From NCBI RefSeq assembly GCF_019635935.1, contig NZ_JAHBYN010000001.1, positions 868,001 to 932,000 on the forward strand: a stretch of 64,000 nt of DNA. Reading direction: 5' to 3'. Both the position numbers and the translations under genes were made by a program. Each line of letters begins with the position of its first letter. Position 1 is the stretch's first letter. The notes under the pieces were generated by a model that worked only from the letters and a program-made list of their open reading frames with translations, was not told the DNA's origin and did no database searches. Shown here piece after piece: positions 41,049-60,837 of the stretch. This stretch comes from Parvibaculum sp. Lineage in GTDB: Bacteria; Pseudomonadota; Alphaproteobacteria; Parvibaculales; Parvibaculaceae.

Positions 41049-42761
41049 ACGAAGCTGGGCCGGCCGCACCGGCTTGTGAAGCAACACAAGATTTTCGCGC
41101 AAGACGCGCTCGCGCATTTCAGGTGTCGAACTTCCCGATATGATGAGTGCCGGAACGGGGCCGTGCGCGGCACGAAGAGTGGAAATAATGTCGAGGCCGG
41201 TACGGCCGGTGCCGAGGTCGTGATCCGAAACGATCAGATCGGGTGGTTCGATCTCGTAAATTTTCGCGGCCGGAACATCGGCGCATGTTTCGACTTCCCA
41301 GCCCCATCTCGCAAGGAGGGCCGCAACCGCCTCGCAGACGGCGCGGTCGTCGTCGATCACCAGCGCGCGTCCGGGCGATGCGGCGGCGGGCTCGATTTCC
41401 TCGACAGGCTTCGCATCGTCGACAAATGCCGCCTTCTCGAAGGGACCGACCGAGAAGGTCGTGCCGCTGCCCGGCCGCGAGCGCAGCGAAACACCGATCT
41501 GCAGGACCTCGGACAAGCGCCGTACGATCGCCAGACCGAGGCCGAAGCCGTCGACCGCTTCGGCGGCGGCCCCGCTGCGCTCGAACTCCTCGAAAATGCG
41601 CGCCTGCTCCGACGGCGCAATGCCGCGCCCGGTGTCGCTGACGTCGAAGAAAATCCCGGCCGCTTCCTCGCGCACATGGACACGGACATCCGTTCCTTGC
41701 GCGTGCTTGATCGCGTTGGAGACCAGGTTTTGGAGGATCCGCCGGACAATCAACGGATCGCTGCGGATAATCGCGCCGCTCGATTTGTACGACAGCCGGA
41801 CGCCGGCGACACGCGCAGCCAGCGCGAACTCTTCGCATATGCCCTCGACCGGTTCCGAGGCGGCGAAGCGCGAGATTTCGGGCCGGGTCTGGCCGGTGTC
41901 GAGCAGTGTGACATCGAGAAGCGAATTGAAAAGCTTGGACAGGGCGTCGACCGATTGCTCGATACGCGTCAGAATTTCGCGCGTGCGCGCCGGCAGCGCG
42001 TCTTTCGACAGCGCCGCCAGGAAGAGACCCATCGAATGTACCGGCTGGCGCAGATCGTGGCTGGCCTGGGCGAAGAACAACGACTTGGCTTCGTTGGCGG
42101 CATCGGCTTCCGCGCGCGCGGATTTCAGAATTTCCGCCTGCGCCTCAAGCTGACGCGCCAGTTCCATTTTTTCCCATTGCAGCAGGAATCCACGACGCGT
42201 GAAGGAGCGCAACGCCCAGCCGAGCGCCAGCATCAGGACCATGAAGACGAGAAGCATTGCGCCCGGAATTACGCCTTTGGCATCCGGGTGTTCGATCAGC
42301 AGCCGTATTACCTGGGCCGGCACGATGATCGAAAGCGTGGCGGCAAGCATCGGAAAATGCATGTTGTGCGTACCGACGCCTGTCAACACGGCACCGCCGA
42401 TGATGAAGCCGATGAACACCTGCAGGTCCGTGTCGCCGGCCGGAAAGAAAACAAGGCCGAGGAAGCCCCAGCTCAGGGCGAGGAGAACGGCCGATACGTC
42501 GAAGGCGAGCGGCAGGTGGCCGAGTGGCGCGCCGGCGGCGGCGAGCGCCGAACCACGAAAACAGATCACCCCCTGCCACAGCGCAAACAGAACCATCCAC
42601 GCAGCCCAGGCCGCGATCAGCGGCGCCGGAAAGTGAATCCGGAGCGAATAGGAGAGCAGCGCGGCAGACAAGACGTGCATCGGCCAGACATAGCGTCCAA
42701 GCCGCAATATCAGCGCGTTGCCCTGATAGCGCAGATAGTCTTCGCTGGCGTCCTGTGCCAT
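41022..42761 (-). CDS. Membrane-bound hybrid histidine kinase (HDLRQP type)
   Basis: The 579-residue protein has about six membrane segments (residues 25-188), a coiled coil, a HisKA variant SHDLRQPVHS (His235), a HATPase domain (NLVSNAIKH, DTGRGIA, GFGLGLA) and a C-terminal receiver with Asp513. The HDLRQP H-box defines a subgroup of hybrid kinases that often donate phosphate to NarL-type regulators. Its 3' end overlaps the convergent response-regulator gene. It is the last gene before the accessory region. Confidence 0.9.
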   Translation of the reverse strand: MAQDASEDYLRYQGNALILRLGRYVWPMHVLSAALLSYSLRIHFPAPLIAAWAAWMVLFALWQGVICFRGSALAAAGAPLGHLPLAFDVSAVLLALSWGFLGLVFFPAGDTDLQVFIGFIIGGAVLTGVGTHNMHFPMLAATLSIIVPAQVIRLLIEHPDAKGVIPGAMLLVFMVLMLALGWALRSFTRRGFLLQWEKMELARQLEAQAEILKSARAEADAANEAKSLFFAQASHDLRQPVHSMGLFLAALSKDALPARTREILTRIEQSVDALSKLFNSLLDVTLLDTGQTRPEISRFAASEPVEGICEEFALAARVAGVRLSYKSSGAIIRSDPLIVRRILQNLVSNAIKHAQGTDVRVHVREEAAGIFFDVSDTGRGIAPSEQARIFEEFERSGAAAEAVDGFGLGLAIVRRLSEVLQIGVSLRSRPGSGTTFSVGPFEKAAFVDDAKPVEEIEPAAASPGRALVIDDDRAVCEAVAALLARWGWEVETCADVPAAKIYEIEPPDLIVSDHDLGTGRTGLDIISTLRAAHGPVPALIISGSSTPEMRERVLRENLVLLHKPVRPAQLRSAILSVLG

Positions 42762-42837
42762 GCCGATGCCGCCCCCGTCCCAACGCCGGCAGCATAGCAG
42801 GTGAAGGCCGATGCGTCGCAGCCCCCTGACCCGAAGT

Positions 42838-43063
42838 GCTTGTAAATGAGAGCTTTCGATACCTGCGCATGCCTTGCAATGTCGGAAGGGCCGACAGGAT
42901 TGGCACGGCTCTCCGTCATGGCAGCAAAGACCGCGCTCCTCAGACGTTCTTCCCTTGCCTCACGATTCCATGGACGCAGAAGTGCCCGACGGTGCTGCTG
43001 CCCAGGAAGGCTCTGATGCTCAGCGCCAGGCGGCAGCTTTGACCCGCTCTGAAGTTGAGTCAT
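42838..43063 (-). pseudogene. Truncated TetR-family regulator (DNA-binding domain only)
   Basis: Read on the minus strand, a TetR helix-turn-helix is clear (REERLRSAVFAAMTESRA, then DIARHAQVSKALIYKHF), but the homology stops after the HTH at about 42838 and the frame runs into unrelated sequence in front of the kinase gene. The ligand-binding domain is missing. This break is the best candidate for the left boundary of the accessory region. The true N-terminus is unclear. Confidence 0.65.
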
Positions 43064-43227
43064 TTCAGCTTGGATTTGAATCACTTTGAAGTTGCGGCGA
43101 TACTATGCGCACCGGTTGAAAGTGATTCAGTCAAACATTGATTTTATTGAACTTTTTCGGGAGCCCGTGACTCGTTTCACCGGCTTAACGTGACTCAGAT
43201 GAGGTGGTTTTCAAGTTCGTTTGACTC
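43055..43227. repeat. Cluster A: six copies of an AAAGTGAYTCA-like motif
   Basis: Copies on the plus strand: AAAGTGATTCA at 43119, GTGACTC at 43167, GTGACTCA at 43190, TTGACTC at 43221. Copies on the minus strand: 43055-43067 and 43076-43087. Several short, similar, partly inverted sites within 170 bp resemble the TnsB-site arrays at Tn7-like transposon ends. The same motif recurs upstream of tnsA (44691-44934). Confidence 0.55.
43184..43227 (+). repeat. 44-bp inverted repeat, left copy
   Basis: This segment is the inverted partner of 44710-44753, with 35 of 44 positions identical by eye, including a 14-base run TTTTCAAGTTCGT flank and GATG core. The pair encloses the debris and toxin-antitoxin genes. 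Confidence 0.75.
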
Positions 43228-43288
43228 GATACAGCTAAGCAGCTGATTTCGCCTCCCTTTCGGCAGAGCACAGACACCCCAAAAATAT

Positions 43289-43558: not shown

Positions 43559-43587
43559 TTGACAAATCTGGCTATTTTGGTTAGAAT
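43559..43587 (+). promoter_or_regulatory. Sigma-70-type promoter of the toxin-antitoxin pair
   Basis: TTGACA (43559-43564), a 17-bp spacer and TAGAAT (43582-43587) form a near-consensus promoter 29 nt upstream of the antitoxin ATG. The palindrome GCCAT-A-ATGGC at 43543-43553 abuts the -35 and is a likely autoregulatory operator for the antitoxin. Confidence 0.75.
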
Positions 43588-43615
43588 TTTCGCGTCGATC
43601 TCAATGGAGTGGAAG

Positions 43616-43966
43616 ATGCCCGCCGATATCATCCCCAGTCTGAAAACACTGCCGCAGCGGAGCGCAACGCAGGTGAAGAACAGATGGGCGGACGTGGTGC
43701 GCGAGGTGCGCAAGCTCGGCAGCGTCGCTATCACGCAGCACAACCAGGTTGAAATGGTGGTGATGAGCGCTGAGAGCTACCAAAAGATCTCCGCCCATGC
43801 CGAGGAAGCCCGTGCCCGTGGCGAAGCGGGGCTTGCCACACTTTCAGATGACTTCGATCGGCGCCTCGCGTCGTTCAATACCGATGGGATCCGCGATCGG
43901 GTCGAGAACGTGATGTCCGCGCGCGGCCGCATCAAACGTCCTGCGAAAGCTGGCGCCACTTACTGA
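43616..43966 (+). CDS. Phd/YefM-type antitoxin
   Basis: The 116-residue product has a Phd/YefM N-terminal domain (RSATQVKNRWADVVREVRKLGSVAITQHNQVEMVVMSAESY), which binds DNA and neutralises the partner toxin through the C-terminal tail. ATG at 43616 follows a GGAG-like site. Its TGA overlaps the ATG of the zeta-type toxin gene by 1 nt, a typical antitoxin-first arrangement. Confidence 0.88.
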   Translation: MPADIIPSLKTLPQRSATQVKNRWADVVREVRKLGSVAITQHNQVEMVVMSAESYQKISAHAEEARARGEAGLATLSDDFDRRLASFNTDGIRDRVENVMSARGRIKRPAKAGATY

Positions 43967-44616
43967 TGCCCGCAAAGCTGGCTCGTCCCGTCATTTTCGT
44001 GCTGGCCGGCGTCAATGGTGCCGGCAAAAGCTCGGTGGGCGGCGCGCTCCTCAAGGAATATGGCCTGGAGTGGTTCAATCCCGATACCTTCTCGCGAGAG
44101 CGGGTGGCGCAAGGCATCGACAAGGATAAGGCGGACGCCGAAGCCTGGGCCTATGGCAAGTCCCGGCTCGAAGGGGCGATTGCCGGAGGCACCGATTTTG
44201 CCTTCGAGACCACCCTTGGCGGCAACACGATCACGGCGCTGCTGGCCAAGGCCGCGGCCACGCATGACATCGTCATGATCTTCTGTGGCCTCGATACGGT
44301 GGAGCGCCATATCGCGCGCGTTGCCCTCAGGGTGAGGCATGGCGGGCACGACATCCCTGAACAGAGGATCCGGGAACGGTGGATGACCGCGCGGCGGAAC
44401 CTGATATTCCTGTTACCGCATCTCAAGGCGCTGCAGGTTTTTGACAATAGTCTCGATGCGGCGCCCGGCAAGACGATTCCGAAGCCTCTCCTGGTCCTGG
44501 AGATGGAGGATGGGCGCGCGCTTTATCCTGTGCAGGATGATCTCGCGGCTCTCAAGACGACGCCGGACTGGGCAAAGCCGATCGTCGAAGCGATGCTGCG
44601 CGCCGAAACGTCCTGA
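43966..44616 (+). CDS. Zeta-toxin-type P-loop kinase
   Basis: The 216-residue product has Walker A GVNGAGKS (residues 15-22), FNPDTFSRE with the catalytic-type Asp40 and FETTLGG with Glu81, and a distal Arg-rich helix, the layout of zeta toxins that phosphorylate UDP-N-acetyl sugars and block peptidoglycan synthesis. The usual zeta partner is an epsilon antitoxin; here the partner is Phd-like. Substrate not proven by the sequence. Confidence 0.85.
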   Translation: MPAKLARPVIFVLAGVNGAGKSSVGGALLKEYGLEWFNPDTFSRERVAQGIDKDKADAEAWAYGKSRLEGAIAGGTDFAFETTLGGNTITALLAKAAATHDIVMIFCGLDTVERHIARVALRVRHGGHDIPEQRIRERWMTARRNLIFLLPHLKALQVFDNSLDAAPGKTIPKPLLVLEMEDGRALYPVQDDLAALKTTPDWAKPIVEAMLRAETS

Positions 44617-44690: not shown

Positions 44691-44934
44691 TCAATCACAT
44701 ACCCTTTTTGAGTTAGACGAACTTGAAAAATGCCGCATCTGAATCACGCCAAGCGGTGTGACGTGATAGTGTGGACAGCTCCCACCTTCGGCATTTGAGT
44801 GCCAAGATTAGGTTTGCTGTTCAACACAATCAGGTCAAGCGCTGTACGCTCCCGCCACCAGACAAAAAGTGACTAGACAGTTACTTTTAATCATCCTAAA
44901 TTTTAGATGAATTTGGCGGGACGGAATGTGACTC
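44691..44934. repeat. Cluster B: AAAGTGAYTCA-like motifs upstream of tnsA
   Basis: Copies: minus strand 44691-44698 and 44740-44747; plus strand AAAGTGACT at 44866; minus strand AAAAGTAACT at 44888-44879, which makes a near-palindrome with the previous copy; plus strand GTGACTC at 44928. In Tn7 the end next to tnsA carries several TnsB sites that overlap the tns promoter; this cluster occupies that place. The exact terminus cannot be fixed. 44935-45231 shows no gene. Confidence 0.55.
44710..44753 (-). repeat. 44-bp inverted repeat, right copy
   Basis: Inverted partner of 43184-43227 (35/44 identity). Together they bracket about 1.5 kb with the toxin-antitoxin pair. A TGTCCACAC sequence stands just outside on the minus strand (44777-44769) and is found again at 43399-43391. 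Confidence 0.75.
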
Positions 44935-45231
44935 CGAAATAAATAAGAACATATACGGGTCTGCCTTCAACGTGGCTGAGAGGTGGCACCACCAGCCGTC
45001 TGGCCGCCTTCAACCAGGAAACCAGGAGAAGCAGACTAATGACAGTGCCTTTCATCTAATTTCCGATTGCGTCGCGCCAAGCAGAACAGCCTTTCGGCCT
45101 TCTGCCCGTTTGCGGATCGCCCCGATACCAGCCGGCGCCCCAATCACAACAACAACCGACAAATCATCGTCACGCAGACCGTGTTCCGGCTGCGACAGGC
45201 TTTGCACGTCCGATTCATCAGGAGATAGCGC

Positions 45232-45978
45232 TTGAACAAGCATCTTGGAGATTTTCAATGCTTTACCGACCTCTCGAAGGTCAAGGCTGACATCAAAAGT
45301 ATTAGCAGGGTGGCGCGGATCGTTTTCAGCACGACGGGCGGCCCCCTTCGCACGATCATCACGGGTACCAAGTGCCGCCCGACTGGCATCTATCACAGTG
45401 TCAAGACCGGTCACGCTCAACCCTACGAATCCCAAGCCGAGCTTCTCTTCATGCAGCAGTGCGAAGCGGACCACGAAGTGGCCGCTTGGCTTGCTCAGCC
45501 TCATCGCCTGGAAATGTTCATTGAAGGAAAGAAGCTGATCTATTTCCCCGACTTCTCGGTGCTCTATGCCGACGATCGGGAGGAGGTCATCGAGGTCAAA
45601 CGGGACAAGGCAAGGGAAGTATCCGGTGATCTCGCAGCCAAACTTGAACGGGCGGAGCGCATCTATCTATCTGCCAATGTGAAGCTCCGCATCCTCGACT
45701 TCTCCGACTTGCGAACGGAGCCGCGCCACTCGAACGCCGAAGAAATCCAGCGCCACTCGCGTACGCGCTACTTCCAGCACGAAGTCTTCTGGCTGACTGA
45801 GCATATCCACCGAGATCCGAGTGGAACCATACCCTTTGCCAAAGCCATCGAGCTTCTGGGTGGAGGCGTCGTCGGCAAAAAGAAGCTCTGCGCCATGATT
45901 GTCCGCAGGCATTTCGGCGTCGACCTCGATGCAAACCTGACCGGCGCCTCGCCTGTCTTTCCTGTTTCGACCGACTGA
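45232..45978 (+). CDS. tnsA: TnsA-like transposon endonuclease
   Basis: The 248-residue product matches TnsA: YESQAELLF with candidate Glu66/Glu70, FPDFSV with Asp107 and EVIEVKR with Glu121/Lys123 form a restriction-enzyme-like E-D-ExK site. TnsA cuts the 5' ends of the element so that transposition is cut-and-paste rather than replicative. The start is a TTG preceded by GGAG at 7 nt; no suitable ATG is nearby. A C-terminal helical region would contact TnsC. Confidence 0.88.
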   Translation: MNKHLGDFQCFTDLSKVKADIKSISRVARIVFSTTGGPLRTIITGTKCRPTGIYHSVKTGHAQPYESQAELLFMQQCEADHEVAAWLAQPHRLEMFIEGKKLIYFPDFSVLYADDREEVIEVKRDKAREVSGDLAAKLERAERIYLSANVKLRILDFSDLRTEPRHSNAEEIQRHSRTRYFQHEVFWLTEHIHRDPSGTIPFAKAIELLGGGVVGKKKLCAMIVRRHFGVDLDANLTGASPVFPVSTD

Positions 45979-45998
45979 GCACATAGGGAGCGATACCG

Positions 45999-48167
45999 AT
46001 GTTTCTGAGACTGGACGTTGGCGACATTGTCTTGGCGGTCGAGGGTGACTACGAGATCAAGAACATTATGCTCGATGGAAGCCTCGTGCTGCAGAAGCAG
46101 TTCGGGCAGGACAGCTTGTTTATGTCGCAAAGCGAGCTCCTCAAGCGGTACGCCGACCGCCGCCTCAGAATTGTGAAACGGGAAGACCGTCGGCGAACGA
46201 GGGTAGAAACATTCGGCAAGACCACAGCCAGAGATCCCAATATCGATCCCGGCCCGCAGGCCAGGATCCGTCAGCTGCTGCTGGTCGCGTATGACAAATC
46301 GCCGGTCGCTCTGTCCGACAAATCGCTTAAAGCATTCATCCGGAACTTTGACCTGCCGAAGGATCTTAACGAGGCAAATTGCCGGCCAAGCGCAGGAACA
46401 TTGAGAAGAGACATAAGGAACAGAATCGAAAACGGCCATCGGCCGATCTCCATTATGGGTTACAAATCAAGCCGATCTGCGTCTCTCCGAATGGCGGAGG
46501 ATGTAGTGACGCTGCTTCTCAAAAGCGTTTACTGGTTCTACGAGAAGCGAGAGAGGACAGTTGCCGAGGCCTATGATCGATTGAAGAGCGTCGTAGACAT
46601 CCTCAATTTGCGCGCCAGAAGATATGGCCGGTATTCCGGACTGAAATGTCCAAGTCACGAAACCGTCCGCCACTGGATCAGACGGTGCGAGAACTACGAC
46701 CTCCACAAGAAGAAGTATGGGGACAAGGCGGCGCGCCGTCGGTATCAAGGATCCAGTGGCGCCCGAGAGGCGAAGCGGCCGCTCGATGTCGTCATGATCG
46801 ACGCGACGACCCTCGACGCCTTCACCATCGTGGACAATGACCGCCGAAATGTTCTTGGGCGCCCGACACTGGTGGCCGCCATCGATGTATGCACGAGGAT
46901 GATCCTCGCGATATTCATCACTTTCGAACCGCCCAGCATCTATGCCGTCATGAACTGCATCAAAGATGCCTTGACGCCGAAACAAGATATCATTGCGCGG
47001 GAGTTTCCTGACATTCGCAAGCCGTTCGTAGCGTTTGGATGTATGCGTTGTGTAATTCTGGATAATGCGTTGGAGAATGTCAGCTCTTCGACGCAGGACA
47101 ACCTGCGCGACTTCGGCATTGATGTCGAATGGGCGCCCGTGAAGACACCGGAGTTCAAGGTGTACATCGAGCGTTTCTTTGGCACTCTCAATACAGGCCT
47201 GCTGCACAAATTGCCCGGGGGAGTTCCCGCACCGCCGAAAGAGCTGCGTGAACAGGACATAGATCCCCGCAAGCAGGCATGCATGACAATCAATCATCTG
47301 GAGGAGCTTGTTCTACAGTTCGTTCTTGAAGTCTATCAGTACCGGCACCACCGCGGTATTGATGACATACCGATAAAGCGTTGGGAGAGGCTGACGAAGG
47401 AGCATGGTATCGATGTCCTCGATGATCTGACGCGCATCGACGACGCTTGTGGCTATGTCAGAAACGCGAATCTGACAAGAGACGGCGTGAAGGTTGAGGG
47501 GCTGAGATTTCACGACAGAAATACCGTCACCGAACTTCTCGCCGATCTGTTGCCGTCGGCTCCCCGGGGGAAGCGACGCAAATCGTCCAACAGCGTTCCG
47601 GTCAAAATCAAGCTCGACCCTGCGGACATCTCGAGTATCCGGGTGTGGAATTCACATACGCGGAGCTACCAGGAACTACCCAATGTACAGCAACACTACA
47701 GCAAAGGTGTATCTCTCTGGTTCCACAGGTTTCTGAAGAAACGGGCCAGGCAGGAAGAGGAAGAGTTCGTCTCCGAAAGCGACCGGGTAAAGGCGCGAGT
47801 AAGGCTGACGCGTTCCGTGGAGAATGCCGGAGCGACCGACAAGCTCAGGCGCGCTCGCTTTATGACGCAGATCGAATCTTCGTCCTCGTTGGAAGTCCAG
47901 CACGCACCTCCCCGGCACGACGGCAATGCGCCGGTGGTGAGCATCACGCCGGGCATGGAGAACCGTGCGGACGGTGGAGAATCGCCGGCTGGATTTCTGC
48001 GCGGCAGAGCCGCGCGCAAAGTGAACGCGAACAAGCGTCAAAAATCAGCTGCCTCGCGCTCGAAAAAGCAGTCCACAACAGTTTCGGAAACGGGTCTCAG
48101 GCTCAAGGATCCTTCTTCTTTCATGGCACACATCGGCACGGCCGAGGGATGGGACGAACGTGATTGA
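45999..48167 (+). CDS. tnsB: TnsB/TniA-like DDE transposase
   Basis: The 722-residue product has N-terminal HTH-rich DNA-binding regions (about 80-240), an rve-type catalytic core with Asp268 (VVMIDAT), Asp355 (CVILDNA) and Glu391 (VYIERFFGT), the last two separated by 35 residues as in the D,D-35-E family, and a C-terminal Mu-B-like tail. It binds the transposon ends and joins the 3' ends to target DNA. It starts 20 nt after tnsA and overlaps tnsC by 8 nt. Confidence 0.93.
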   Translation: MFLRLDVGDIVLAVEGDYEIKNIMLDGSLVLQKQFGQDSLFMSQSELLKRYADRRLRIVKREDRRRTRVETFGKTTARDPNIDPGPQARIRQLLLVAYDKSPVALSDKSLKAFIRNFDLPKDLNEANCRPSAGTLRRDIRNRIENGHRPISIMGYKSSRSASLRMAEDVVTLLLKSVYWFYEKRERTVAEAYDRLKSVVDILNLRARRYGRYSGLKCPSHETVRHWIRRCENYDLHKKKYGDKAARRRYQGSSGAREAKRPLDVVMIDATTLDAFTIVDNDRRNVLGRPTLVAAIDVCTRMILAIFITFEPPSIYAVMNCIKDALTPKQDIIAREFPDIRKPFVAFGCMRCVILDNALENVSSSTQDNLRDFGIDVEWAPVKTPEFKVYIERFFGTLNTGLLHKLPGGVPAPPKELREQDIDPRKQACMTINHLEELVLQFVLEVYQYRHHRGIDDIPIKRWERLTKEHGIDVLDDLTRIDDACGYVRNANLTRDGVKVEGLRFHDRNTVTELLADLLPSAPRGKRRKSSNSVPVKIKLDPADISSIRVWNSHTRSYQELPNVQQHYSKGVSLWFHRFLKKRARQEEEEFVSESDRVKARVRLTRSVENAGATDKLRRARFMTQIESSSSLEVQHAPPRHDGNAPVVSITPGMENRADGGESPAGFLRGRAARKVNANKRQKSAASRSKKQSTTVSETGLRLKDPSSFMAHIGTAEGWDERD

Positions 48168-49101
48168 CAACCACCAACATGCTCGATTGATGCGCTTCAA
48201 GGCGATCACCATTCGATATCCAAGAATGAATGAAGTCTTCAAGAGGTTCGATTTTCTGCGCGCCGAGGCGCAGGCGGTGCGCAACCTTGGACCTTCTGAT
48301 GCACTCGATATCACCAGCCTGTCCGCTTTGCCGCTCATTGCGCCAACGGGGAGCGGAAAGACTCGCATCATCAACGCTTACCAGAAGAAAATTCAGAAGG
48401 AGCAACATCCACCGGGAATTTCACCTGTTGTGGTCGTGAACCTCTCTACGAATGTCACCGTCAAGGGCTTCTACGCCGACGTCCTGAAGGGATTTGGCGA
48501 TCCAAACTTCGCCAAAGGCACACAGCAGCTACTCGAGAAGCGGACCCAGACGTTTATTCGAAAATGCGGCGTAGAGCTGTTGATTATCGATGAGGTGCAT
48601 CACCTGATCAGTGCCGAGACCAACAAGGTTCGGTGGGACGTTGCCGAGCTCTTCAAAAACATACTCAACGACAAGACTTGCTGTCTCGCTCTGAGCGGTA
48701 TCGAGAAGGCGGCCGTACTTTTTGAGAAGGGTGGCCAGCTCGCAAGGAGGTGCATCAGTCCTGTCCCGCTGGGGCCACTCGATATGCAGAACAACTCCGA
48801 AAGGGAGATGTTCCTGGGCTTCATCGGACGACTGGACGACCTGATGTTGAAGGAGAAGGTCACCGATGCGGAAAACGGCCTCCTTGAAGGAGATGTGCCT
48901 GCGTGTCTGTATGAGGTCTCTGGCGGCGTTATCGGAATAGCCTCACACCTTGTCTATCACGCGCTTATCTGCTGCTTTTCACGGGGTGGTACGTCACTCG
49001 AAAGATGCGATTTCGTGAGGGCTACGGACGACTGGGCGGTGTCGACGGGCTTCGCTACGCAAAACCCGTTCAGGACGCAAGCGCAGAGGTTGACGGCATG
49101 A
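48160..49101 (+). CDS. tnsC: TnsC/TniB-like AAA+ transposition regulator
   Basis: The 313-residue AAA+ ATPase has Walker A APTGSGKT (residues 61-68) and Walker B LLIIDEVHH (Asp144, Glu145). It links target-bound TniQ to the TnsAB transposase. At 313 residues it is close to TniB of Tn5053 and to the TnsC of I-F3 elements, and much shorter than the 555-residue TnsC of Tn7. Its stop overlaps the tniQ start as ATGA. Confidence 0.92.
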   Translation: MIDNHQHARLMRFKAITIRYPRMNEVFKRFDFLRAEAQAVRNLGPSDALDITSLSALPLIAPTGSGKTRIINAYQKKIQKEQHPPGISPVVVVNLSTNVTVKGFYADVLKGFGDPNFAKGTQQLLEKRTQTFIRKCGVELLIIDEVHHLISAETNKVRWDVAELFKNILNDKTCCLALSGIEKAAVLFEKGGQLARRCISPVPLGPLDMQNNSEREMFLGFIGRLDDLMLKEKVTDAENGLLEGDVPACLYEVSGGVIGIASHLVYHALICCFSRGGTSLERCDFVRATDDWAVSTGFATQNPFRTQAQRLTA

Positions 49102-50933
49102 GCTTGCCAAAGTTCGTCGTGCCGGTCTCTCCGCTGAAAGGAGAGAGTCTCGCGGGTCTTGTCGCCCGGGCTGCCTGTGAAAATCTGATCACGAGCCCGG
49201 CCCATGTCTTTTCCCATCTGGGCATGCCGACAGCCCGTCTCGGGAGCGTTGCGACGCGACATGCTGCGTATTGCAATGACTTGGCATATCTCATTGGCAC
49301 CATGGCGGAGGAGCTTCGGCCGCTCTTCTATAAACGGACGGACAGGCAAGTTGCGGGATTGGGCGCTGAAGTCAACTTCTTCGGCACTCACCTCGCATTG
49401 AGATGTCGGGAGTCGAAGATAAGGCGCCTGTCTCCGGCGAGTCTCCGCGTATCGGCGCATCATCGAGCGGCATGGGAGCTGCGCTTCCTCCATTGGTGTC
49501 CGGAGTCACTTCAGTATCTTCTTAGCCATTGCCCGTCATGCGGCAAAAGCTTCGGTTGGGAAAAATTGGCGGGTATCCATATCTGCGAGCATTGCGGCGC
49601 GGATGTCCGTGAGCAGGAAGCCGAATATGTCGCCGAGCGCGACAAGGCCACCGCCCACCTTCTTTCGGATCTCGTGCTGAACCGGGACGAGACCGCAAAC
49701 ATACGAGCGTCGCTACATGAAGATCTGCGTCAACTTGTAGACGCCGACCTGCTTTGCCTTACCCTCATGCTCGCCTCCGGCTTCGAATGGTCGCCAAAGA
49801 TACTTCACAATGCGCTTTACGACATCAACAGAGCGAGCGCTCCATCCCTTGAGATGTGGCGCGTGGGTTTTGAGCGCATCCGAAACTGGCCTGAATCCGC
49901 TTGTGAGCTCGTCTGGAAACAGCTTGAGACTCCAAAGGAGGACGCAGGCTATGGCATGATCGAGGAACTTGGTCCTGTCGCTGCGCATCTCATGCCGGTG
50001 AACGCCGACCTGGCGAAGACGCTCCGGAAAATGGTTGACGACAGCTACTTGCGTAAAGGGGTGATCGCTCTACGCCCTATCGGGGGTAGCGCGGAGTGGC
50101 ACCGGCCCGGCTGGTTGCCCTCAAGCGAGGCAAAAAAGAAGTACAAACTTACGGACTGGACGATTGATCAGGCACTTCGCTCCCCGGAAGTCCGGAGAAT
50201 TTCTCACGAGCGGGGAGAAAGATCACCGACCCTTCTGCATGAGGCGGATCTGCTCCAGTGGGTTGATAAACTGAAAGAAGCGCTCGATGTACCGACTGCC
50301 ATGCAGCGCATCGGAATTCCGGAGCATGCACTCTGGGAGTTACTCGAATTCGGACACCTGAAGTTCCTGACCACCGAAATCAGAATCCTGACGCCGCGGA
50401 AAGGCTTCATTGAAGCAAGCTCCGTAAAAGACCTTGGCAATGCGCTGCTTGATCGTTGCGCGCCGATGCCCAGCGACAACGAAAACCTTGTACCTCTGAG
50501 CGAGGCGGTGGAGCGTTCGCGTTCTCCGGTTTCGCCCTGGACAACGGCCATCATTGCCATACTGAAAGGGAAGTTGAATGTCTGGCGGCGTGAGGCTCCG
50601 TCTTCGGCCTATGTCGATGCCTTGCTCGTGAGGCCAGATCAGTTCGAGGCTGAAGTCGGCGGAAAAATCGTACTTCCCGAGTTCCGGGAAGCTCCTCTCC
50701 TCATGACCTATAACGATGCCGCAGCCCTGTTGCGAACATCGCCTGATGCGATCGTCCAATTGACCAGAGCGCAGAAAATCGACTCGGAGAACGGCGGCCC
50801 CGGGCGAAGAGCTGTGCGGCGATCCGTCTACAGCTATGCCATGGCACATTTGGGCTCGATAAAACCGATGCAGAGCAAATCAGGGCCGGCGGAAATGGAT
50901 AGCCGCGCCGAAACGATGCCGCAGCGTACTTAG
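49098..50933 (+). CDS. tniQ: TniQ-family target-selection protein (long form)
   Basis: The 611-residue product has a TniQ domain with zinc-ribbon cysteines (Cys134; Cys145-x2-Cys148; Cys163-x2-Cys166) and a long C-terminal half with several helix-turn-helix-like segments (YKLTDWTIDQALRSPEVRR; TYNDAAALLRTSPDAIVQL). The length is that of TnsD-type proteins, which recognise a fixed attachment site, rather than short CRISPR-linked TniQ. The target here is unknown. Confidence 0.9.
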   Translation: MSLPKFVVPVSPLKGESLAGLVARAACENLITSPAHVFSHLGMPTARLGSVATRHAAYCNDLAYLIGTMAEELRPLFYKRTDRQVAGLGAEVNFFGTHLALRCRESKIRRLSPASLRVSAHHRAAWELRFLHWCPESLQYLLSHCPSCGKSFGWEKLAGIHICEHCGADVREQEAEYVAERDKATAHLLSDLVLNRDETANIRASLHEDLRQLVDADLLCLTLMLASGFEWSPKILHNALYDINRASAPSLEMWRVGFERIRNWPESACELVWKQLETPKEDAGYGMIEELGPVAAHLMPVNADLAKTLRKMVDDSYLRKGVIALRPIGGSAEWHRPGWLPSSEAKKKYKLTDWTIDQALRSPEVRRISHERGERSPTLLHEADLLQWVDKLKEALDVPTAMQRIGIPEHALWELLEFGHLKFLTTEIRILTPRKGFIEASSVKDLGNALLDRCAPMPSDNENLVPLSEAVERSRSPVSPWTTAIIAILKGKLNVWRREAPSSAYVDALLVRPDQFEAEVGGKIVLPEFREAPLLMTYNDAAALLRTSPDAIVQLTRAQKIDSENGGPGRRAVRRSVYSYAMAHLGSIKPMQSKSGPAEMDSRAETMPQRT

Positions 50934-50957
50934 CCCACACCTCCGTTCGGATGACCC

Positions 50958-51305
50958 TCAGAAAAGCCATTTCGCCATTGCCGACGACGGCGAGCCGAGC
51001 CTGTAGTAGCGGGAGAAAGTGCGGGCCCAACCAAGATCGGGGGCAAACACATAAAGATCCGACGTTATGGCCGTGGTTGTTCCAATAAGGGGGTGGTTCG
51101 TGACCTTACCCTGAAGCGCCGTCACACCACGTTGAACGAAGGCATAGTCATCAATGAGAGGCGCGCTCTCGAGTTCCTCGAGTGAGGGCCTGACAACGCC
51201 CGCCCTCAACCATTCGAGATCGGCACACAGGCTCTTCATGCTTTCCAGTTGTTCACTCAGACGCGCCGTCTGCAGGACGCCATCTCTTCCAACATAAATG
51301 ACCAT
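50958..51305 (-). CDS. Small protein of unknown function behind a LexA-type box
   Basis: The 115-residue product (N-terminus MVIYVGRDG) has no recognised domain. The start is firm: AAGGAGGT lies 6 nt upstream of the ATG. A GTTC-N7-GTTC box 45 nt upstream predicts induction by DNA damage. It converges with tniQ, 24 nt away, and so lies within or at the edge of the Tn7-like element. Confidence 0.7.
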   Translation of the reverse strand: MVIYVGRDGVLQTARLSEQLESMKSLCADLEWLRAGVVRPSLEELESAPLIDDYAFVQRGVTALQGKVTNHPLIGTTTAITSDLYVFAPDLGWARTFSRYYRLGSPSSAMAKWLF

Positions 51306-51349
51306 GTCCGACCTCCTTGTTGATGGGAGGCAGACTAAGCGCAAGGCTA

Positions 51350-51364
51350 GAACATAACAAGAAC
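51350..51364 (-). promoter_or_regulatory. LexA-type box (GTTC-N7-GTTC)
   Basis: On the minus strand the sequence reads GTTC, seven bases, GTTC, at 45-59 nt upstream of the 115-residue protein gene, where a promoter is expected. The core resembles the box at 11624-11638 (both end TATGTTC). Confidence 0.7.
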
Positions 51365-51685
51365 AAAAACATGGGCGATATCCCGAGTCAAGGCTGAAAA
51401 TCTATACGCGCTGGTGCGCACTCCAACCGAACCAAGCAAGCCGTAGACGCTGAGCGGCAAGGGAACAGGTCATGAGCGCCTGCCGGCATTTATGAGAAAC
51501 CAGATGGCGCTGCCGCCGGCTTCGTCGCCTCAGCGGCAGCCTGCACGACCGGCCTTGCAAGCTGGCAAGGGACGGACGGCCCGTCGCAACTGGTGCGTCA
51601 ATGATCAGATTACCAGCTTTGGCCCGCCGCCCTGCCCCGCCTGTGGCTGTTCAAAAAAGCATTCCTGAGAAGGCAGAGACCCGTC
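51365..51685. other. Gap between the SOS-type gene and the IS element
   Basis: No gene, repeat or terminator is recognised in these 321 bases. Base composition is more GC-rich than in the tns genes, so it may be a remnant of other DNA. This is where one Tn7-like end could have been expected, but no AAAGTGAYTCA cluster is seen. Confidence 0.4.
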
Positions 51686-53309
51686 GTCCGCTTTGCGCCG
51701 ATATTGTTGATTTAGTCGTTGCGTGATCGACAGCTTGTCCGTGGGCCGATGATTTCGGGCCCGTTGTCCGGGGCGGCCTGATGCCCGATAGCCTTTATGA
51801 CGGCGGGCCGTTACCCGGTAGACGCTGTTTCATGCCGCCGCGTGGCCGTGGCTCGGCATTGCTCGAAGCTTCGCCAGCTTCCTCAGGTTTTGTGCGGTGG
51901 CGGCGAGGAGGAACTCATCCCTGGCACCCTTCGGTCCACGCAGGCGCAGGCGGCCGAGCCTGAGGATGCGCTTGAGGTGGGCGAAGAGCATCTCGACCTT
52001 CTTGCGCCGATGCCGCGAACGCTCATAGGCCGGCGTGTTCGCCAGAGCCCGAGCCACATCGCGCGCGTCTTCGTCGATGTCCCGCGGCACCTTGCGCTGT
52101 GGCGTGTTCGGACAGCACTTCATCTTGAAGGCGCAGTTCTGGCAATCGGACTTGCTCGACCGGTATAGCCGCGTTCCGTCCTTGGTGATGCCCGAACGCG
52201 GCGTCTTGTAGGTTCGCCTGAACTGCACCAGCAGCTTGCCGCCCGGGCAGGTGTAGTGATCCCGCTCAGCATCGAAGACGAAGTCGGAGCGCGAGAAGGT
52301 GCCGTCGGTCCGGTTCGATTTGTCGAAGACGGGGATATGCGGCTCGATCTGCCGCTCCTTGACCAGCCAGGCGAGGTTCGCCGCCGATCCATAGGCGCTG
52401 TCGGCCGCCAGATGCCGAGGCTTGAGGCCGAAGCGCTTGTCAGTCCTGTCGATCATCGTTCTCGACGCGCCCACCTCGGCCTGCCGGATGGCGCGGCTGG
52501 CCTCGACGTCGAGGATGATCGCATTCTCGGTATCGATCAGATAGTTGGTGGCATAGGCGAAGAAGGCATGCCCCTTGTGAGCACCGGTCCACTGAGCGGC
52601 CGGATCCGAGGGCGAGACGAACTTCGGCTTCACCGCGCTGGCGGCGCCGAAGGCCGCATCGTCCAGTGTGGCCAGATACGCACGGACAGCCTGTCCTGCA
52701 TCCGGGCCAAGTTCATCGGGGTGCCACTCGTCACCGGGAACAGAGCGCTGCTTGTTGGCATCCGCCGCGATCAGGCTCGCATCGACCGCAAAGCCTTCGC
52801 CACCGACCAGCCCCTCGCGCAGGCAGCGTTCCACCACCGTCTCGAACAGATGCCGCAGGATATCGCTCTGCCGGAAGCGGCCGTGTCGATTGCGCGAGAA
52901 GGTCGAATGGTCGGGCACCTTGCCGTCGAGCCCCAGACGGCAAAACCACCGATAGGCCAGGTTGAGATGGACCTCCTCGCACAGGTGCCGTTCGGACCGA
53001 ATGCCGAGGCTGTAGCCCACGATCAGCATCCGCATCATCAGCTCCGGATCGATCGAGGGCCGCCCGATGCCGCTGTAGAAGGGCTTCAGCTCCGTGCGAA
53101 CCGTCTCGAGATCGAGGAACCGGTCGATACGTCGCAACAGGTGATCGTCAGGAACATGATCGTCGAGACAGAAATCGTAAAACAGCTGCGCCGGCGCCAC
53201 CTGTGTTCCCATCATCGTTCTGCCCTCCGATCAGCACAGCACGATGGAATCACGCTCCAGAAGCCCGTTCAACCGTCGATTAAATCAACACAATCCGCCA
53301 AGAGCGGAC
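51686..53309 (-). mobile_element. IS1182-family insertion sequence, complete
   Basis: Imperfect 33-bp terminal inverted repeats (51686-51718 and 53277-53309; 24 of 33 positions match, both starting GTCCGCT and ending GTTGATTTARTCG) enclose one transposase gene. The element is 1624 bp. A clear target-site duplication is not seen in the flanks, which may reflect later change or a different exact terminus. Confidence 0.8.
51830..53215 (-). CDS. IS1182-family transposase
   Basis: The 461-residue DDE transposase has the IS1182 layout: N-terminal DUF772-type domain (YSGIGRPSIDPELMMRMLIV, then SERHLCEEVHLNLAYRWFC), catalytic Asp in FAVDASLIAADA, Asp in LAADSAYGS, a zinc-like Cys cluster (SDCQNCAFKMKC) and Glu in KKVEMLFAHLKR. 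A strong GGAGGG ribosome site precedes ATGATG. The frame is intact, so the element may be active. Confidence 0.93.
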   Translation of the reverse strand: MMGTQVAPAQLFYDFCLDDHVPDDHLLRRIDRFLDLETVRTELKPFYSGIGRPSIDPELMMRMLIVGYSLGIRSERHLCEEVHLNLAYRWFCRLGLDGKVPDHSTFSRNRHGRFRQSDILRHLFETVVERCLREGLVGGEGFAVDASLIAADANKQRSVPGDEWHPDELGPDAGQAVRAYLATLDDAAFGAASAVKPKFVSPSDPAAQWTGAHKGHAFFAYATNYLIDTENAIILDVEASRAIRQAEVGASRTMIDRTDKRFGLKPRHLAADSAYGSAANLAWLVKERQIEPHIPVFDKSNRTDGTFSRSDFVFDAERDHYTCPGGKLLVQFRRTYKTPRSGITKDGTRLYRSSKSDCQNCAFKMKCCPNTPQRKVPRDIDEDARDVARALANTPAYERSRHRRKKVEMLFAHLKRILRLGRLRLRGPKGARDEFLLAATAQNLRKLAKLRAMPSHGHAAA

Positions 53310-53607: not shown

Positions 53608-55251
53608 ATGATTGCAACGCTGACAAACAATGAACGACAGGCCGCAATCGGCATCTCCGTTCTCGTGGCCATATGCGGCCTCGCACTTGCGGCCGCTGGC
53701 CGACACGATCTACTGGAAATTCATGGCTACCTAATTCTGGTTTCGGGGATTCTATGCACATTTACTGTCATTCATGGCTATTACGAGCCTGAGCCAACTC
53801 CAGAAAGACTGTCGGACTACTACGACGCGCCCATCAAAGCAGGGATCGCGGTGGCGATGGCATGGGCGGTGTTTGCCATGTTTGTTGGTGTCTGGGTAGC
53901 GTCGTTACTCGCCTGGCCCGAGCTCACACTTGATCAAGCATGGGCCAGCTTCGGACGTCTACGCCCAGTCCACACCACAGGTATCATCTTCGGATTTGGC
54001 GGCAATGCGCTGATTGCAACTTCTTTCCACGTGATGCAACGCACATCGCGTGCACGTATGCCTGACCAACTCTCTGCTTGGTTTGTCCTCGTCGGTTTCA
54101 ACCTCTTCTGTCTCCTTTCTGTGACTGGATACCTCATGGGGATCACACAGTCGAAGGAGTATGCTGAAGCGGAATGGTACGCAGATATATGGCTCGTCAT
54201 CGTCTGGGTGGTCTATTTCATCCTCTACATCCGCACCATCGCCCGACGAAAAGAACCGCATATCTATGTCGCCAACTGGTATTTCCTGGCGTTCATTCTC
54301 GTTGTCGCGATCCTGCACATAGTGAACAACATCGCCGTTCCAGTTTCTCTTGGACACGCCAAGAGCTACACCGTCTGGTCCGGCGTACAGGATGCTATGG
54401 TGCAGTGGTGGTATGGGCACAACGCAGTCGCATTCTTCCTGACGGCTGGCTTTCTTGGCATGCTCTATTACTACCTCCCCGTCAGAGCGCAACGACCGAT
54501 CTTTTCCTACAGACTTTCAATCCTCAGCTTCTGGGGTATCACGTTTTTCTACATGTGGGCCGGCTCACACCATCTCCACTACACCGCCTTGCCGCATTGG
54601 GTGCAGACGCTGGGAATGACTTTCTCGGTGATGCTGCTGGTTCCGTCATGGGCATCGGCCGGTAACGCATTACTCACCCTCAACGGTGCCTGGCACCGAG
54701 TGCGTGACGACGCAACACTTCGCTTCATGATGGTGGCTGCCGTGTTCTACGGACTGGCTACCTTCGAGGGGTCATTCATGGCGATCCGGCCGGTCAATTC
54801 TCTCTCGCATTATACGGACTGGACTGTCGGCCACGTTCACGCCGGGGCCCTCGGATGGGTCGCGCTAATCACGTTCGGTTCTTTCTATACGCTAGTGCCC
54901 GGACTGTGGAAGCGCGAGCGCATGTATTCACCCACGCTAGTCGAAGTCCACTTCTGGCTCGCTCTGGCCGGAACCCTCGTTTACATCTTAGCGATGTGGA
55001 ACTCCGGGATCATTCAGGGTCTGATGTGGCGGACGTACACGGAAGACGGTACGCTCGCCTATTCCTTCGTCGACTCGCTGACCGCGATGTACCCCTACTA
55101 CATCGCGCGGGCTTTCGGTGGCCTTCTCTTCCTTCTCGGCGCTATCATCGCCTCCTACAATATCTGGATGACGGTTCGCGCAGTGCCCTTGGCCGCTGAC
55201 CGCGGCTCGGACGTTCCCGACTCAAACGCCGTTGCGGCGGCGGGGGAATGA
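53608..55251 (+). CDS. ccoN: cbb3-type cytochrome c oxidase subunit I CcoN
   Basis: CcoN is the catalytic subunit that reduces oxygen with high affinity. The 547-residue protein has about 12-14 membrane segments and the haem-copper ligands: low-spin haem His in LEIHGYL, CuB His with the cross-linked Tyr region in WWYGHNAVAFFLTAGFLGMLYYYLP, the CuB pair in SHHLHYT and haem His residues in VGHVHAGALGW. Start follows no strong ribosome site. It leads ccoO-Q-P. Confidence 0.96.
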   Translation: MIATLTNNERQAAIGISVLVAICGLALAAAGRHDLLEIHGYLILVSGILCTFTVIHGYYEPEPTPERLSDYYDAPIKAGIAVAMAWAVFAMFVGVWVASLLAWPELTLDQAWASFGRLRPVHTTGIIFGFGGNALIATSFHVMQRTSRARMPDQLSAWFVLVGFNLFCLLSVTGYLMGITQSKEYAEAEWYADIWLVIVWVVYFILYIRTIARRKEPHIYVANWYFLAFILVVAILHIVNNIAVPVSLGHAKSYTVWSGVQDAMVQWWYGHNAVAFFLTAGFLGMLYYYLPVRAQRPIFSYRLSILSFWGITFFYMWAGSHHLHYTALPHWVQTLGMTFSVMLLVPSWASAGNALLTLNGAWHRVRDDATLRFMMVAAVFYGLATFEGSFMAIRPVNSLSHYTDWTVGHVHAGALGWVALITFGSFYTLVPGLWKRERMYSPTLVEVHFWLALAGTLVYILAMWNSGIIQGLMWRTYTEDGTLAYSFVDSLTAMYPYYIARAFGGLLFLLGAIIASYNIWMTVRAVPLAADRGSDVPDSNAVAAAGE

Positions 55252-55255
55252 AACG

Positions 55256-56008
55256 ATGCCCGAACTCTTCCACCGCAAACTCGAACGTTCCACGATCGGT
55301 TTCGTGCTCGCCATCATTGCCGTGGCAAGTGTCGGCGGTATCGTGGAGATCGCCCCGCTCTTCACCATCGACGAGACGGTCGAGGAAGCCCCCGACATGC
55401 GACTCTACACGCCGTTAGAGCTGGCGGGCCGCAATATTTATATCCGCGAAGGTTGCTATGCGTGTCACAGCCAGATGATCCGAACATTGCGTGACGAGGT
55501 CGAGCGTTATGGCCCTTACTCACTCGCTGTGGAGTCGCGCTACGATCATCCGATGTTATGGGGTTCCAAAAGAACAGGCCCGGATCTTGCCAGGGTCGGC
55601 GGCAAATACTCGGATCTCTGGCATGTCGACCACCTGACCAATCCTCGCGATGTTGTTCCGGAGTCGAATATGCCAGCCTATCGCTGGCTGGCTCGGAATT
55701 CACTGAAGATCGACGATCTTCCGCTACACCTCGCGGCGCAGCGCGCGGTCGGTGTGCCGTACACTGATGCCATGATAGAGAATGCCACGGAAGATGCATA
55801 TGGTCAGGCTACCCCTGAAAGCGATGCCGCGTCAGGTGTTGCGGAGCGCTATGGCGAGGAAACCCATATTCGTACCTTCGATGGCGTCGCCACGCGCCTA
55901 ACGGAAATGGATGCTTTGATCGCCTATCTTCAGATTCTCGGCCGGCTGACAGACGCGGCGCATGAGCACACAGTCGCCCCCCAGAAACCACCCGAACCAA
56001 TCGAATGA
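55256..56008 (+). CDS. ccoO: cbb3-type oxidase subunit II CcoO (monohaem cytochrome c)
   Basis: The 250-residue membrane-anchored cytochrome has one N-terminal membrane segment (about 15-35) and one haem c site CYACH, followed by the family segment GPYSLAVESRYDHPMLWGSKRTGPDLARVGG. It passes electrons from CcoP to CcoN. The gene starts 4 nt after ccoN. Confidence 0.96.
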   Translation: MPELFHRKLERSTIGFVLAIIAVASVGGIVEIAPLFTIDETVEEAPDMRLYTPLELAGRNIYIREGCYACHSQMIRTLRDEVERYGPYSLAVESRYDHPMLWGSKRTGPDLARVGGKYSDLWHVDHLTNPRDVVPESNMPAYRWLARNSLKIDDLPLHLAAQRAVGVPYTDAMIENATEDAYGQATPESDAASGVAERYGEETHIRTFDGVATRLTEMDALIAYLQILGRLTDAAHEHTVAPQKPPEPIE

Positions 56009-56021
56009 AGGAGAACGCGTG

Positions 56022-56192
56022 ATGGGAATCGATCACGATACTCTGGTTTTCTTTTCGAAGAGCTGGGGGTTGTTCTACCTGTGGGCGTTCGCAATCTGCG
56101 TTCTCGTCTACACGTTCTGGCCCTCCAACAGGAAGCGTTTCAACAACGCCAAGAAAAGCATTCTCGATCCGGAAGACAAGCCATGGCAGTAG
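56022..56192 (+). CDS. ccoQ: cbb3-type oxidase subunit CcoQ
   Basis: The 56-residue protein has one membrane segment (about 17-32) followed by a basic RKRFNNAKKSIL stretch, as in CcoQ, which stabilises the oxidase. AAGGAGAACG lies before the ATG. Its 3' end overlaps the start of ccoP by 10 nt. Confidence 0.85.
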   Translation: MGIDHDTLVFFSKSWGLFYLWAFAICVLVYTFWPSNRKRFNNAKKSILDPEDKPWQ

Positions 56193-57061
56193 AAGAGCGC
56201 GATCCGATCAGCGGGCGAAAAACGACCGGGCACGAATGGAACGGCATCAAGGAGCTGGATACGCCGGTGCCCAAAGGCGTGCTAATTTTCCTGATCGTCA
56301 CACATATTTTTGCGGTGCTCTGGTGGTTCCTGATGCCGACCTGGCCTCTTGGCACGACCTACACAAGAGGGCTTCTGGACGTCGATCAACGCAAGACGGT
56401 TGAAGAACAACTGACCAGATCAGCCGCTCAGCGTTCTTTTTGGATGGACAGGATGGAAAGCTTGAGTTTCGTGCAGATTCAGGCTGACCCGGAACTCATG
56501 TCGATCGTTGCAAGCAGTGGCCATCAATTGTTTGGAGACAACTGTGCAGCCTGTCACGGTGTTGATGGAAAGGGCGGCGCCAATTATCCCGACCTGACAG
56601 ATGACGGCTGGCTTTGGGGTGGAGATATCGAGACCATCGCCGAGACGATACGTGTCGGGATCAACAGCGCACATCCCGAAAGCCGTTTTGCTCAAATGCC
56701 GTCATTTGGGGCCGATGGAATTCTTGACCGCGAAGAGGTGCGGAGTGTGGCTGCTTATGTCTACTCGCTCAGGCATGCAGATTATTCAACGCGCGAAAAT
56801 ATCGGAAAAATCGAAGCCGGGAAGGAAGTCTTCATCGCCAGTTGTGCGGCCTGTCACGGCGAGGACGCGCGTGGGAACCGTGACCTCGGCGCACCAAATC
56901 TGACAGATCCATATTGGGTGTATGGCGGCGATTTACAGACGATCGTGAATTCCGTTCATGGAGGCAGACAGGGACATATGCCGGCATGGGATGAGCGGCT
57001 GAGCACCGCGAGCATTAATATCCTCGCCCTCTACGTTCACTCTCTGGGAACGGACGACTAA
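56183..57061 (+). CDS. ccoP: cbb3-type oxidase subunit III CcoP (dihaem cytochrome c)
   Basis: The 292-residue protein has one clear membrane segment (about 33-52, VLIFLIVTHIFAVLWWFLM) and two haem c sites, CAACHGVDG and CAACHGEDA, the usual CcoP pattern. It receives electrons from soluble cytochromes. Its stop overlaps the next start as TAATG. Confidence 0.95.
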   Translation: MAVEERDPISGRKTTGHEWNGIKELDTPVPKGVLIFLIVTHIFAVLWWFLMPTWPLGTTYTRGLLDVDQRKTVEEQLTRSAAQRSFWMDRMESLSFVQIQADPELMSIVASSGHQLFGDNCAACHGVDGKGGANYPDLTDDGWLWGGDIETIAETIRVGINSAHPESRFAQMPSFGADGILDREEVRSVAAYVYSLRHADYSTRENIGKIEAGKEVFIASCAACHGEDARGNRDLGAPNLTDPYWVYGGDLQTIVNSVHGGRQGHMPAWDERLSTASINILALYVHSLGTDD

Positions 57062-57258
57062 TGACAACGGATCTCGAGAGAAACCGTCTTAGCAAGATAT
57101 TGTTCGTCTGGATAATCATACCGGCTGCGCTGGTGCTATTTGTCGCCGCCAATGCCCATCTCGTGTACGTCGCGTATGAGTCTCGGCCAGACTGTGTTCC
57201 GCACCTCAAAGAGGTCGGTCACGAAGGGAAGTTCAGAGCTGCTAAATCTGCCTGCTGA
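57061..57258 (+). CDS. Small membrane protein in the cbb3 operon
   Basis: The 65-residue product has one membrane segment (about 13-32) and a conserved-looking C-terminal tail with two cysteines (RPDCVPHLKE, FRAAKSAC). It overlaps ccoP by one base, so it is translationally coupled. The place suggests an accessory or assembly role for the oxidase; it is not recognisable as CcoG, CcoH or CcoI. Confidence 0.7.
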   Translation: MTTDLERNRLSKILFVWIIIPAALVLFVAANAHLVYVAYESRPDCVPHLKEVGHEGKFRAAKSAC

Positions 57259-57271
57259 GGAGATTCAACTG

Positions 57272-58090
57272 ATGAACGAAGCCGACAGTTCCTATGGCTT
57301 GTTGAGCCAAACCTCCAGCATCGCCGAAACGAGAAACGAGCGGCTACAGAGACACTTGCCGGTCTGGATCAGCCTGCAATGGTTGCGCGCGGGCTGGCGG
57401 GATCTGACTACCCGACCGAGTCTAAGTCTTGCTTATGGCTTTGGGATATTTCTCATTTCCCTGACCCTTGTCTGGTTGCTGATCTATTTCGGACTGGATT
57501 ACATTCTTTTCCCCGCCCTTGCTGGATTCATGATCGTAGCTCCCGTTCTCGCCATTGGGCTCTATGAAAAAAGCAGGACGCTGGGGGACGGGAAGAACGT
57601 AACGCTCAGTCATATGATCCTGGTCAAGCCCCGTGCCGGCGCTCAGGTTTATTTTGTCGGCGTAATGTTCTGCCTACTTATGCTTTTATGGATGCGGGCC
57701 GCCGTTCTAATTTATGCCCTTTTCTTCGGCGTGAGGCCCTTTCCGGGACTAGATCACATTGCGGAATTGCTCCTTACACAACCAGTCGGGTGGGCAATGC
57801 TCTTCGTCGGAACGATCGTCGGTGGACTCTTTGCGTCATTTGCCTTCGCAATCAGTGTCTTTTCAATTCCCATGCTGCTCGATAAATCGACCGATGCCAT
57901 GACAGCCATGGGGATGAGTATGGCACTCGTCTGGAACAATTTCATTCCAATGGTGGTATGGGGAATAATCGTCGCTGCGTTCTTCACGGCATGCGTGCTG
58001 ACAGGGTTGATCGGGCTGATTGTAGTCTTTCCACTGTTGGGACATGCGACGTGGCACGCATATCTTGCTGTCGCCCGAACGGAGGAATAA
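57272..58090 (+). CDS. DUF2189 family membrane protein
   Basis: The 272-residue product has about six membrane segments and the DUF2189 pattern (WLRAGWRDLTTRPSLSLAYG near the N-terminus, LGHATWHAYLAV at the C-terminus). The function of this family is unknown; members often lie beside terminal oxidase genes. GAGGAGA precedes the ATG by 8 nt. Confidence 0.85.
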   Translation: MNEADSSYGLLSQTSSIAETRNERLQRHLPVWISLQWLRAGWRDLTTRPSLSLAYGFGIFLISLTLVWLLIYFGLDYILFPALAGFMIVAPVLAIGLYEKSRTLGDGKNVTLSHMILVKPRAGAQVYFVGVMFCLLMLLWMRAAVLIYALFFGVRPFPGLDHIAELLLTQPVGWAMLFVGTIVGGLFASFAFAISVFSIPMLLDKSTDAMTAMGMSMALVWNNFIPMVVWGIIVAAFFTACVLTGLIGLIVVFPLLGHATWHAYLAVARTEE

Positions 58091-58184
58091 GGCGATATAT
58101 AGAGGACTGGATCCGAGCTCCGCCTGAGTCAAAGAGCCGATCCCTCTGGGTGATCGCAACATCTCGACAACAGGACCCTGTACA

Positions 58185-58415: not shown

Positions 58416-58466
58416 ACATATAGACACATGTATCGCCGAGATTGCCGTCAGATTGAGAATGCTCCC

Positions 58467-59424: not shown

Positions 59425-59447
59425 GACGTGATCCTCCCAAATAGAGA

Positions 59448-60835: not shown

Positions 60836-60837
60836 CC

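Follow-up and report, generated by a model that had tools for sequence, protein, structure and literature searches.

In Tn7, TnsA and TnsB excise the element, TnsC licenses and a TniQ-domain protein selects the site. The end of Tn7 on the tnsA side faces its attachment site. TnsD proteins that home alone have long C-terminal HTH regions, while the TniQ proteins used with a guide RNA are mostly core (PMC10293859). In Tn6022, TniQ serves as a hub for TnsF, which picks comM (PMC10293859). Attachment to tRNA genes is known among Tn7-like elements, both via TniQ/TnsD and via guide RNA (PMC11406308). TniQ/TnsD is held to target tRNA genes, with insertion downstream, in the I-B2 and I-D CASTs and in cyanobacterial relatives (PMC10293859, PMC11406308); CyCAST inserts 30-33 nt downstream of the tRNA (PMC10293859).

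We analyzed a 64,000-nt stretch of a Parvibaculum genome (the window; the genome is G000 below) that encodes a tnsA-tnsB-tnsC-tniQ operon. Positions are those of the window, and numbers above 64000 continue beyond its right edge. Our preferred reading, at a probability of roughly 0.83, is that the operon belongs to a complete Tn7-superfamily transposon of 55.5 kb that moves by cut and paste, with the C-terminal half of TniQ homing on a tRNA gene with a CAT anticodon. A survey of 40 genomes of the family turned up close relatives in the same genus only (G013, G015, G026 and G027; TnsB 62-83% identical). Operon order is identical in G013, G015 and G027; for G026 the match covers tnsA and tnsB up to residue 445. 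Plasmid-borne relatives share about 25-36% identity over parts of TnsB only. In the literature searched we found nothing published about Tn7-like elements of Parvibaculum or about DUF6634, a gene family met below.

The preliminary description had reported four intact genes with readable catalytic residues, and we found the same. All four lie on the plus strand. The endonuclease gene tnsA (45232-45978; 248 aa; PF08722, E 9e-8) carries its catalytic residues and begins with a TTG codon, a position kept in five relatives. It is followed by tnsB for the DDE transposase (45999-48167; 722 aa; best solved relative Tn6677 TnsB, E 4e-35), tnsC for the AAA+ regulator (48160-49101; 313 aa; PF05621, TniB, E 9e-21; best solved relative VchTnsC, E 6e-18) and a TnsD-sized tniQ (49098-50933; 611 aa; Pfam TniQ, E 4e-6). 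Residues E70/D107/E121/K123 of TnsA are unchanged in all 20 aligned homologues, D268/D355/E391 of TnsB in 35 of 35, and K67 (Walker A) and D144-E145 (Walker B) of TnsC in 33 of 33. The locus thus has the gene set of the Tn7 superfamily: a DDE TnsB, a TnsC-family ATPase and a TniQ/TnsD protein. TniQ, encoded once in the whole genome, has an N-terminal TniQ domain (residues 10-136), a CxxC...CxxC zinc motif (145-166) and, by one weak match, a C-terminal HTH (about 535-573). An AlphaFold model of TniQ built from two sequences was discarded (mean pLDDT 40). Downstream of the intact operon of G015 lies a pseudogene piece of a second TniQ C-terminal region (L012, 13103-13369 of G015:C22).

The genes stand where the preliminary description put the core (45232-50933), but by DNA comparison the conserved block is larger, 44861-51400, since a leader ahead of tnsA and a minus-strand DUF6634 gene also belong to it. 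The leader (44865-45231, plus strand, AAAAGTGACT..GACAGTTACTTTT) was delimited in a five-genome alignment and folded computationally. In the predicted folds, a hairpin GTCTGCCTTC...GGAGAAGCAGAC encloses the Shine-Dalgarno sequence. Five relatives keep the segment GTCTGCCTTC...ACCAGGAGAAGCAGAC and then a mini-ORF of six codons (ATG-N5-stop, starting at 45039), with the stop at a constant position and the stop codon varying (TAA, TAG, TGA). Two inner pairs show double changes; the outer pairs are invariant, so covariation is uninformative for them.

The DUF6634 gene (50958-51344, minus strand; PF20339, E 1e-12), with its coding start probably at an ATG at about 51305, adjoins three of the four fully examined operons. 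It is 79-80% identical beside the operons of G027 and G015 and absent from the G013 locus. The predicted fold of its transcript, which begins with GTCTGCCTnC, similar to the tns leader, again has the Shine-Dalgarno sequence inside a hairpin. Upstream, at 51350-51364 and kept in G027 and G015, is GAAC-N7-GAAC, the alphaproteobacterial LexA pattern (PMC3091678). Leader hairpins and this LexA-type box may be regulatory, judging by sequence and predicted folds. A general role of DUF6634 as a Tn7 accessory was rejected, the gene being found in 2 of 289 genomes of the class. The present genome has a second DUF6634 gene away from the element (G000:C1:214347-214556).

We placed the lineage with TnsB and TnsC trees, a check that the preliminary description had proposed, and they put it outside the well-described families. 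The genus clade (support 100/100) is separate from the I-F3 branch and groups with other alphaproteobacterial loci (G677, G050, G623 and G499). It shares a side of the tree with an Aeromonas I-F3 CAST and an Allocoleopsis element, the Tn5053 group standing apart; these placements are relative to one I-F3 reference, Tn7 was included for TnsB alone, where its branch is long, and some deep branches are long and weakly supported. The solved structures agree with the trees, the best matches being Tn6677 TnsB and VchTnsC. The combination of a short TnsC with a long TniQ had been singled out in the preliminary description. The sizes are right (313 and 611 aa), but this pattern is the rule in the branch and not unusual: in sister loci, TnsC ORFs measure 337-361 aa and TniQ ORFs 628-988 aa, and the I-F3 TnsC of known structure has 330 aa.

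Of the characterized systems, I-F3 CASTs have the nearest TnsB and TnsC by sequence. Like the present element, they lie on this side of the tree and have separate TnsA and TnsB, a TnsC of about 310-350 aa and a 5-bp duplication. They differ in having Cascade cas genes and a CRISPR array, in a TniQ of about 410 aa as against 611 aa, and in their sites, which are guaC, yciA, ffs or rsmJ (PMC11406308) and not a tRNA gene. We found no CRISPR-like repeats or CRISPR RNA families between 43.0 and 98.7 kb, that is, across the whole element, and no cas genes among the cargo proteins scanned, extending what had been said of the window. That the element is a CRISPR-associated transposon after loss of its cas genes, or takes a stray guide RNA in trans, would fit the position of TnsB and TnsC on the I-F3 side and a weak match of TniQ to the PADLOC TniQ_IF model. 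We consider this very improbable, given that neither cas genes nor repeats were found in the element and that TniQ is long in the sister loci too, in contrast to the I-F3 protein. The lineage looks CRISPR-free, apparently restricted to the genus, and outside the well-described families.

Tn7 likewise has TnsABC with a TnsD-sized site selector, uses a safe chromosomal site and makes a 5-bp duplication. However, its TnsC has 555 aa, it inserts at glmS and also encodes TnsE, and its TnsB is only distantly related to the present one. Tn5053/Tn402 (TniABQR) share the TniB-sized ATPase but lack TnsA, have a short TniQ and a serine resolvase, target res sites, and form a clade separate from that of the present, TnsA-bearing element.

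The ends of the element were found by comparison with related genomes, including one that lacks the insertion, as had been suggested. Each terminus was set where the first TGAYTC ends 25 nt further in. The element then spans 43104 to 98610 (55,507 bp), reaching 34.6 kb past the window. A 5-bp duplication, GATAC at 43099-43103 (reverse complement GTATC), is matched at about 98611-98615, beside the opposite end, so that GTATC is repeated perfectly outside both termini. Perfect 5-bp duplications flank three independent elements (GTATC in G000, TGCCG in G013 and TATTT in G015, whose element is spread over two contigs). The far end of the G013 element was located 65 kb away.

Putative TnsB-type sites with a consensus of about CAAGcTnAnNTGACTCAnn form arrays at both ends, mutually inverted. 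The tnsA-side end (43104-43231, plus strand, terminus TATGCGCACC...) has sites at 43109, 43177 and 43208 and a weak one at 43154, a layout repeated in G013 and G015; its terminus is TAT, and those of the relatives are TGC or TGA. TGACTCA-type motif repeats occur near 43.1 kb and also adjoin the 3' end of the tRNA gene in G027. We scanned 104 kb of G000, where about 0.17 matches of at least 18 bits are expected by background, with a site matrix built solely from other genomes. Clusters appeared only at 43.05-43.23 kb and 98.3-98.6 kb, apart from a degenerate one at 44.7 kb and a stray hit at 12.1 kb. The duplications, the matrix matches at both ends and an empty site in G020, described below, therefore define the element as 43104-98610. 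The start of similarity among relatives, 44861, was rejected as a terminus: it is the operon leader, and the true end lies 1.8 kb further out.

Remnant ends lie close by. Immediately outside the element, at 43053-43098 on the minus strand, two TnsB-type sites (22.4 and 19.8 bits with the matrix made without G000) have the spacing of the intact tRNA-side end. A tetR gene fragment is beside them (42710-43084), and positions 42828-42971 share 87% identity with the sequence immediately within the G027 end. This remnant end with its tetR fragment suggests that an earlier element occupied the same tRNA and was later displaced. Within the element, 44706-44760 (minus strand) is a degenerate inverted copy of the tnsA-side end, 80% identical over 50 nt to 43178-43227, which may have been left by a nested insertion. 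The copy (44706-44760, against 43177-43231) lies about 1.6 kb inside the element, and the pair brackets the antitoxin and AAA_33 genes described below. It led us to consider a smaller transposon at 43.1-44.8 kb, which was rejected as the inverted copy has no clear terminus. The TAT terminus, the inverted end fragment at 44.7 kb, the remnant ends alongside and an IS1182 copy in the cargo could together mean a decayed island with old ends that is no longer mobile. We regard this as unlikely, since the four genes are intact, the duplication is perfect, and close relatives vary in cargo and location. We infer that the element is still active today.

The attachment gene is a single-copy tRNA gene with a CAT anticodon (C1:966622-966699), 34.6 kb past the right edge of the window. 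ARAGORN calls it Met; it could be a CAT isoleucine tRNA. The element ends 11 nt behind the 3' CCA. A pattern search for this tRNA across 27 genomes of the genus gave downstream sequence in 23. Four tns-bearing elements end at the same tRNA, 6-14 nt behind the CCA (G000, 11 nt; G013, 14; G026, 7; G027, 6), and ends also lie behind it in G034 (9 nt) and G014 (20 nt), where no tns genes of the lineage were found. G020 has the empty site, its tRNA and the flank of the G013 element being contiguous over 1.6 kb at 83% identity. The operon is always on the strand opposite the tRNA, 20-48 kb off, and in each of the four tns-bearing elements it is the end distal to tnsA that faces the tRNA, the reverse of Tn7. 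Insertion at a safe site, specific in position and orientation, is thus found for four elements, with one relative, G015, elsewhere.

Several further features were seen around this tRNA. G000, G013, G015 and G034 have in common a tetR gene directly within the tRNA-side end. In G014, end-like site clusters lie at or near the same tRNA (L072, G014:C7, 250-8700) in a genome without tns genes of the lineage; from their sequence they may be core-less or non-autonomous elements. An arsR-type gene adjoins the tRNA in G027 and is 63 kb from it in G000 (35095 versus 98622). There the tRNA is inverted relative to that gene, a rearrangement at the island. In G050, the sister locus has a tRNA-Leu gene roughly 3 kb past tniQ (L106, 8829-8914), a possible attachment site of that lineage.

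These results agree with the suggestion that the lineage uses a fixed site through a single long TniQ, with no guide RNA involved. The simplest reading is that a protein guides homing to the tRNA, because TniQ combines the core, the zinc motif and an HTH match and no CRISPR part was found. In this mechanism TnsB would bind the repeated sites at both ends, and TnsA and TnsB would excise the element. TnsC would connect them to TniQ, whose C-terminal half would recognize the CAT-anticodon tRNA gene; insertion would therefore have a fixed orientation, lie a few nucleotides past the CCA and leave the tRNA intact. Against this reading we count the location of G015, the TAT terminus, the 6-14 nt spread in distance and the low confidence of the TniQ model.

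The G015 element sits upstream of a chromosomal tetR gene while its tRNA site is unoccupied, so targeting may not be strictly single-site. Its TniQ is 61% identical, and a swap of the target domain was rejected because similarity runs the full length of the protein without a break. A similar TniQ at a different site is what one might see if another factor chose the tRNA, either a host protein at the tRNA gene or the DUF6634 product, with TniQ as an adaptor. The hub role of TniQ in Tn6022 and the retention of DUF6634 beside most of the operons point the same way. However, G013 is at the tRNA without an operon-adjacent DUF6634 gene and G015 has the gene without being at the tRNA, the core has no tnsF-like gene, and the long C-terminal half of TniQ, with its HTH match, resembles that of the TnsD proteins that home alone. 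We therefore think such a factor improbable and favor recognition by TniQ itself. A more elaborate idea, improbable at present, is of a new two-mode family next to the I-F3 CASTs in which one TniQ serves both the CAT tRNA as home and, as G015 would exemplify, other sites, with a switch linked to DNA damage via a DUF6634 gene under LexA-box control and linked also to the similar hairpin leader of both transcripts.

From the tnsA side, the order is end, antitoxin and AAA_33 genes, leader, tnsA-tnsB-tnsC-tniQ, DUF6634, IS1182, metabolic cargo, NnrS, CBASS, STAND-like genes, tetR, end and tRNA. A Phd/YefM-type antitoxin (43559-43966, plus strand; PF02604, E 2e-8) precedes an AAA_33 or zeta-toxin-like kinase (43966-44616, plus strand; PF13671, E 2e-6; PF06414, E 5e-4), its possible toxin partner. 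Beyond the operon are an IS1182-family insertion sequence (51830-53215, minus strand; NF033551, E 7e-123) and, at 53608-64000, ccoNOP for a cbb3 oxidase, DUF2189, an ECF sigma factor, a Cys/Met PLP enzyme and a sulfite/nitrite reductase. The cargo past the window, to 98610, comprises NnrS, a CBASS cyclase and phospholipase, two STAND-like proteins and tetR before the tRNA-side end. The CBASS pair, with its phospholipase effector, lies with a PDC-S71-like protein at 80396-84627. At 89338-97466 two proteins of more than 1300 aa have weak STAND NTPase and Cap4 nuclease matches, the Cap4 match being at the N terminus of one of them. By these similarities the CBASS pair, the PDC-S71-like protein and the STAND-like proteins are likely defence cargo.

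A new family and a new attachment site had both been suggested as possible. The clade falls in no well-described family; the class of site is not new, because tRNA sites are known for other Tn7-like elements (PMC11406308). As in the tRNA-homing I-B2 and I-D CASTs and their cyanobacterial relatives, insertion is downstream of the tRNA. Those elements have a fused TnsAB, unlike the separate tnsA and tnsB here, and use Leu and Val tRNA genes in place of a CAT-anticodon tRNA. I-B2 and I-D CASTs have a second TniQ with CRISPR, whereas here there is one TniQ and no CRISPR was found, and CyCAST inserts further from the tRNA, at 30-33 nt as against 6-14 nt behind the CCA. The lineage thus differs from known tRNA-site elements in TnsAB organization, tree position, distance and tRNA. 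It provides a CRISPR-free relative on the I-F3 side whose ends, attachment site and empty site are delimited and which has a single long TniQ. How guide RNA replaced protein targeting in this branch can therefore be put to the test using few, well-defined parts. The alphaproteobacteria also gain another carrier of defence cargo with known limits.
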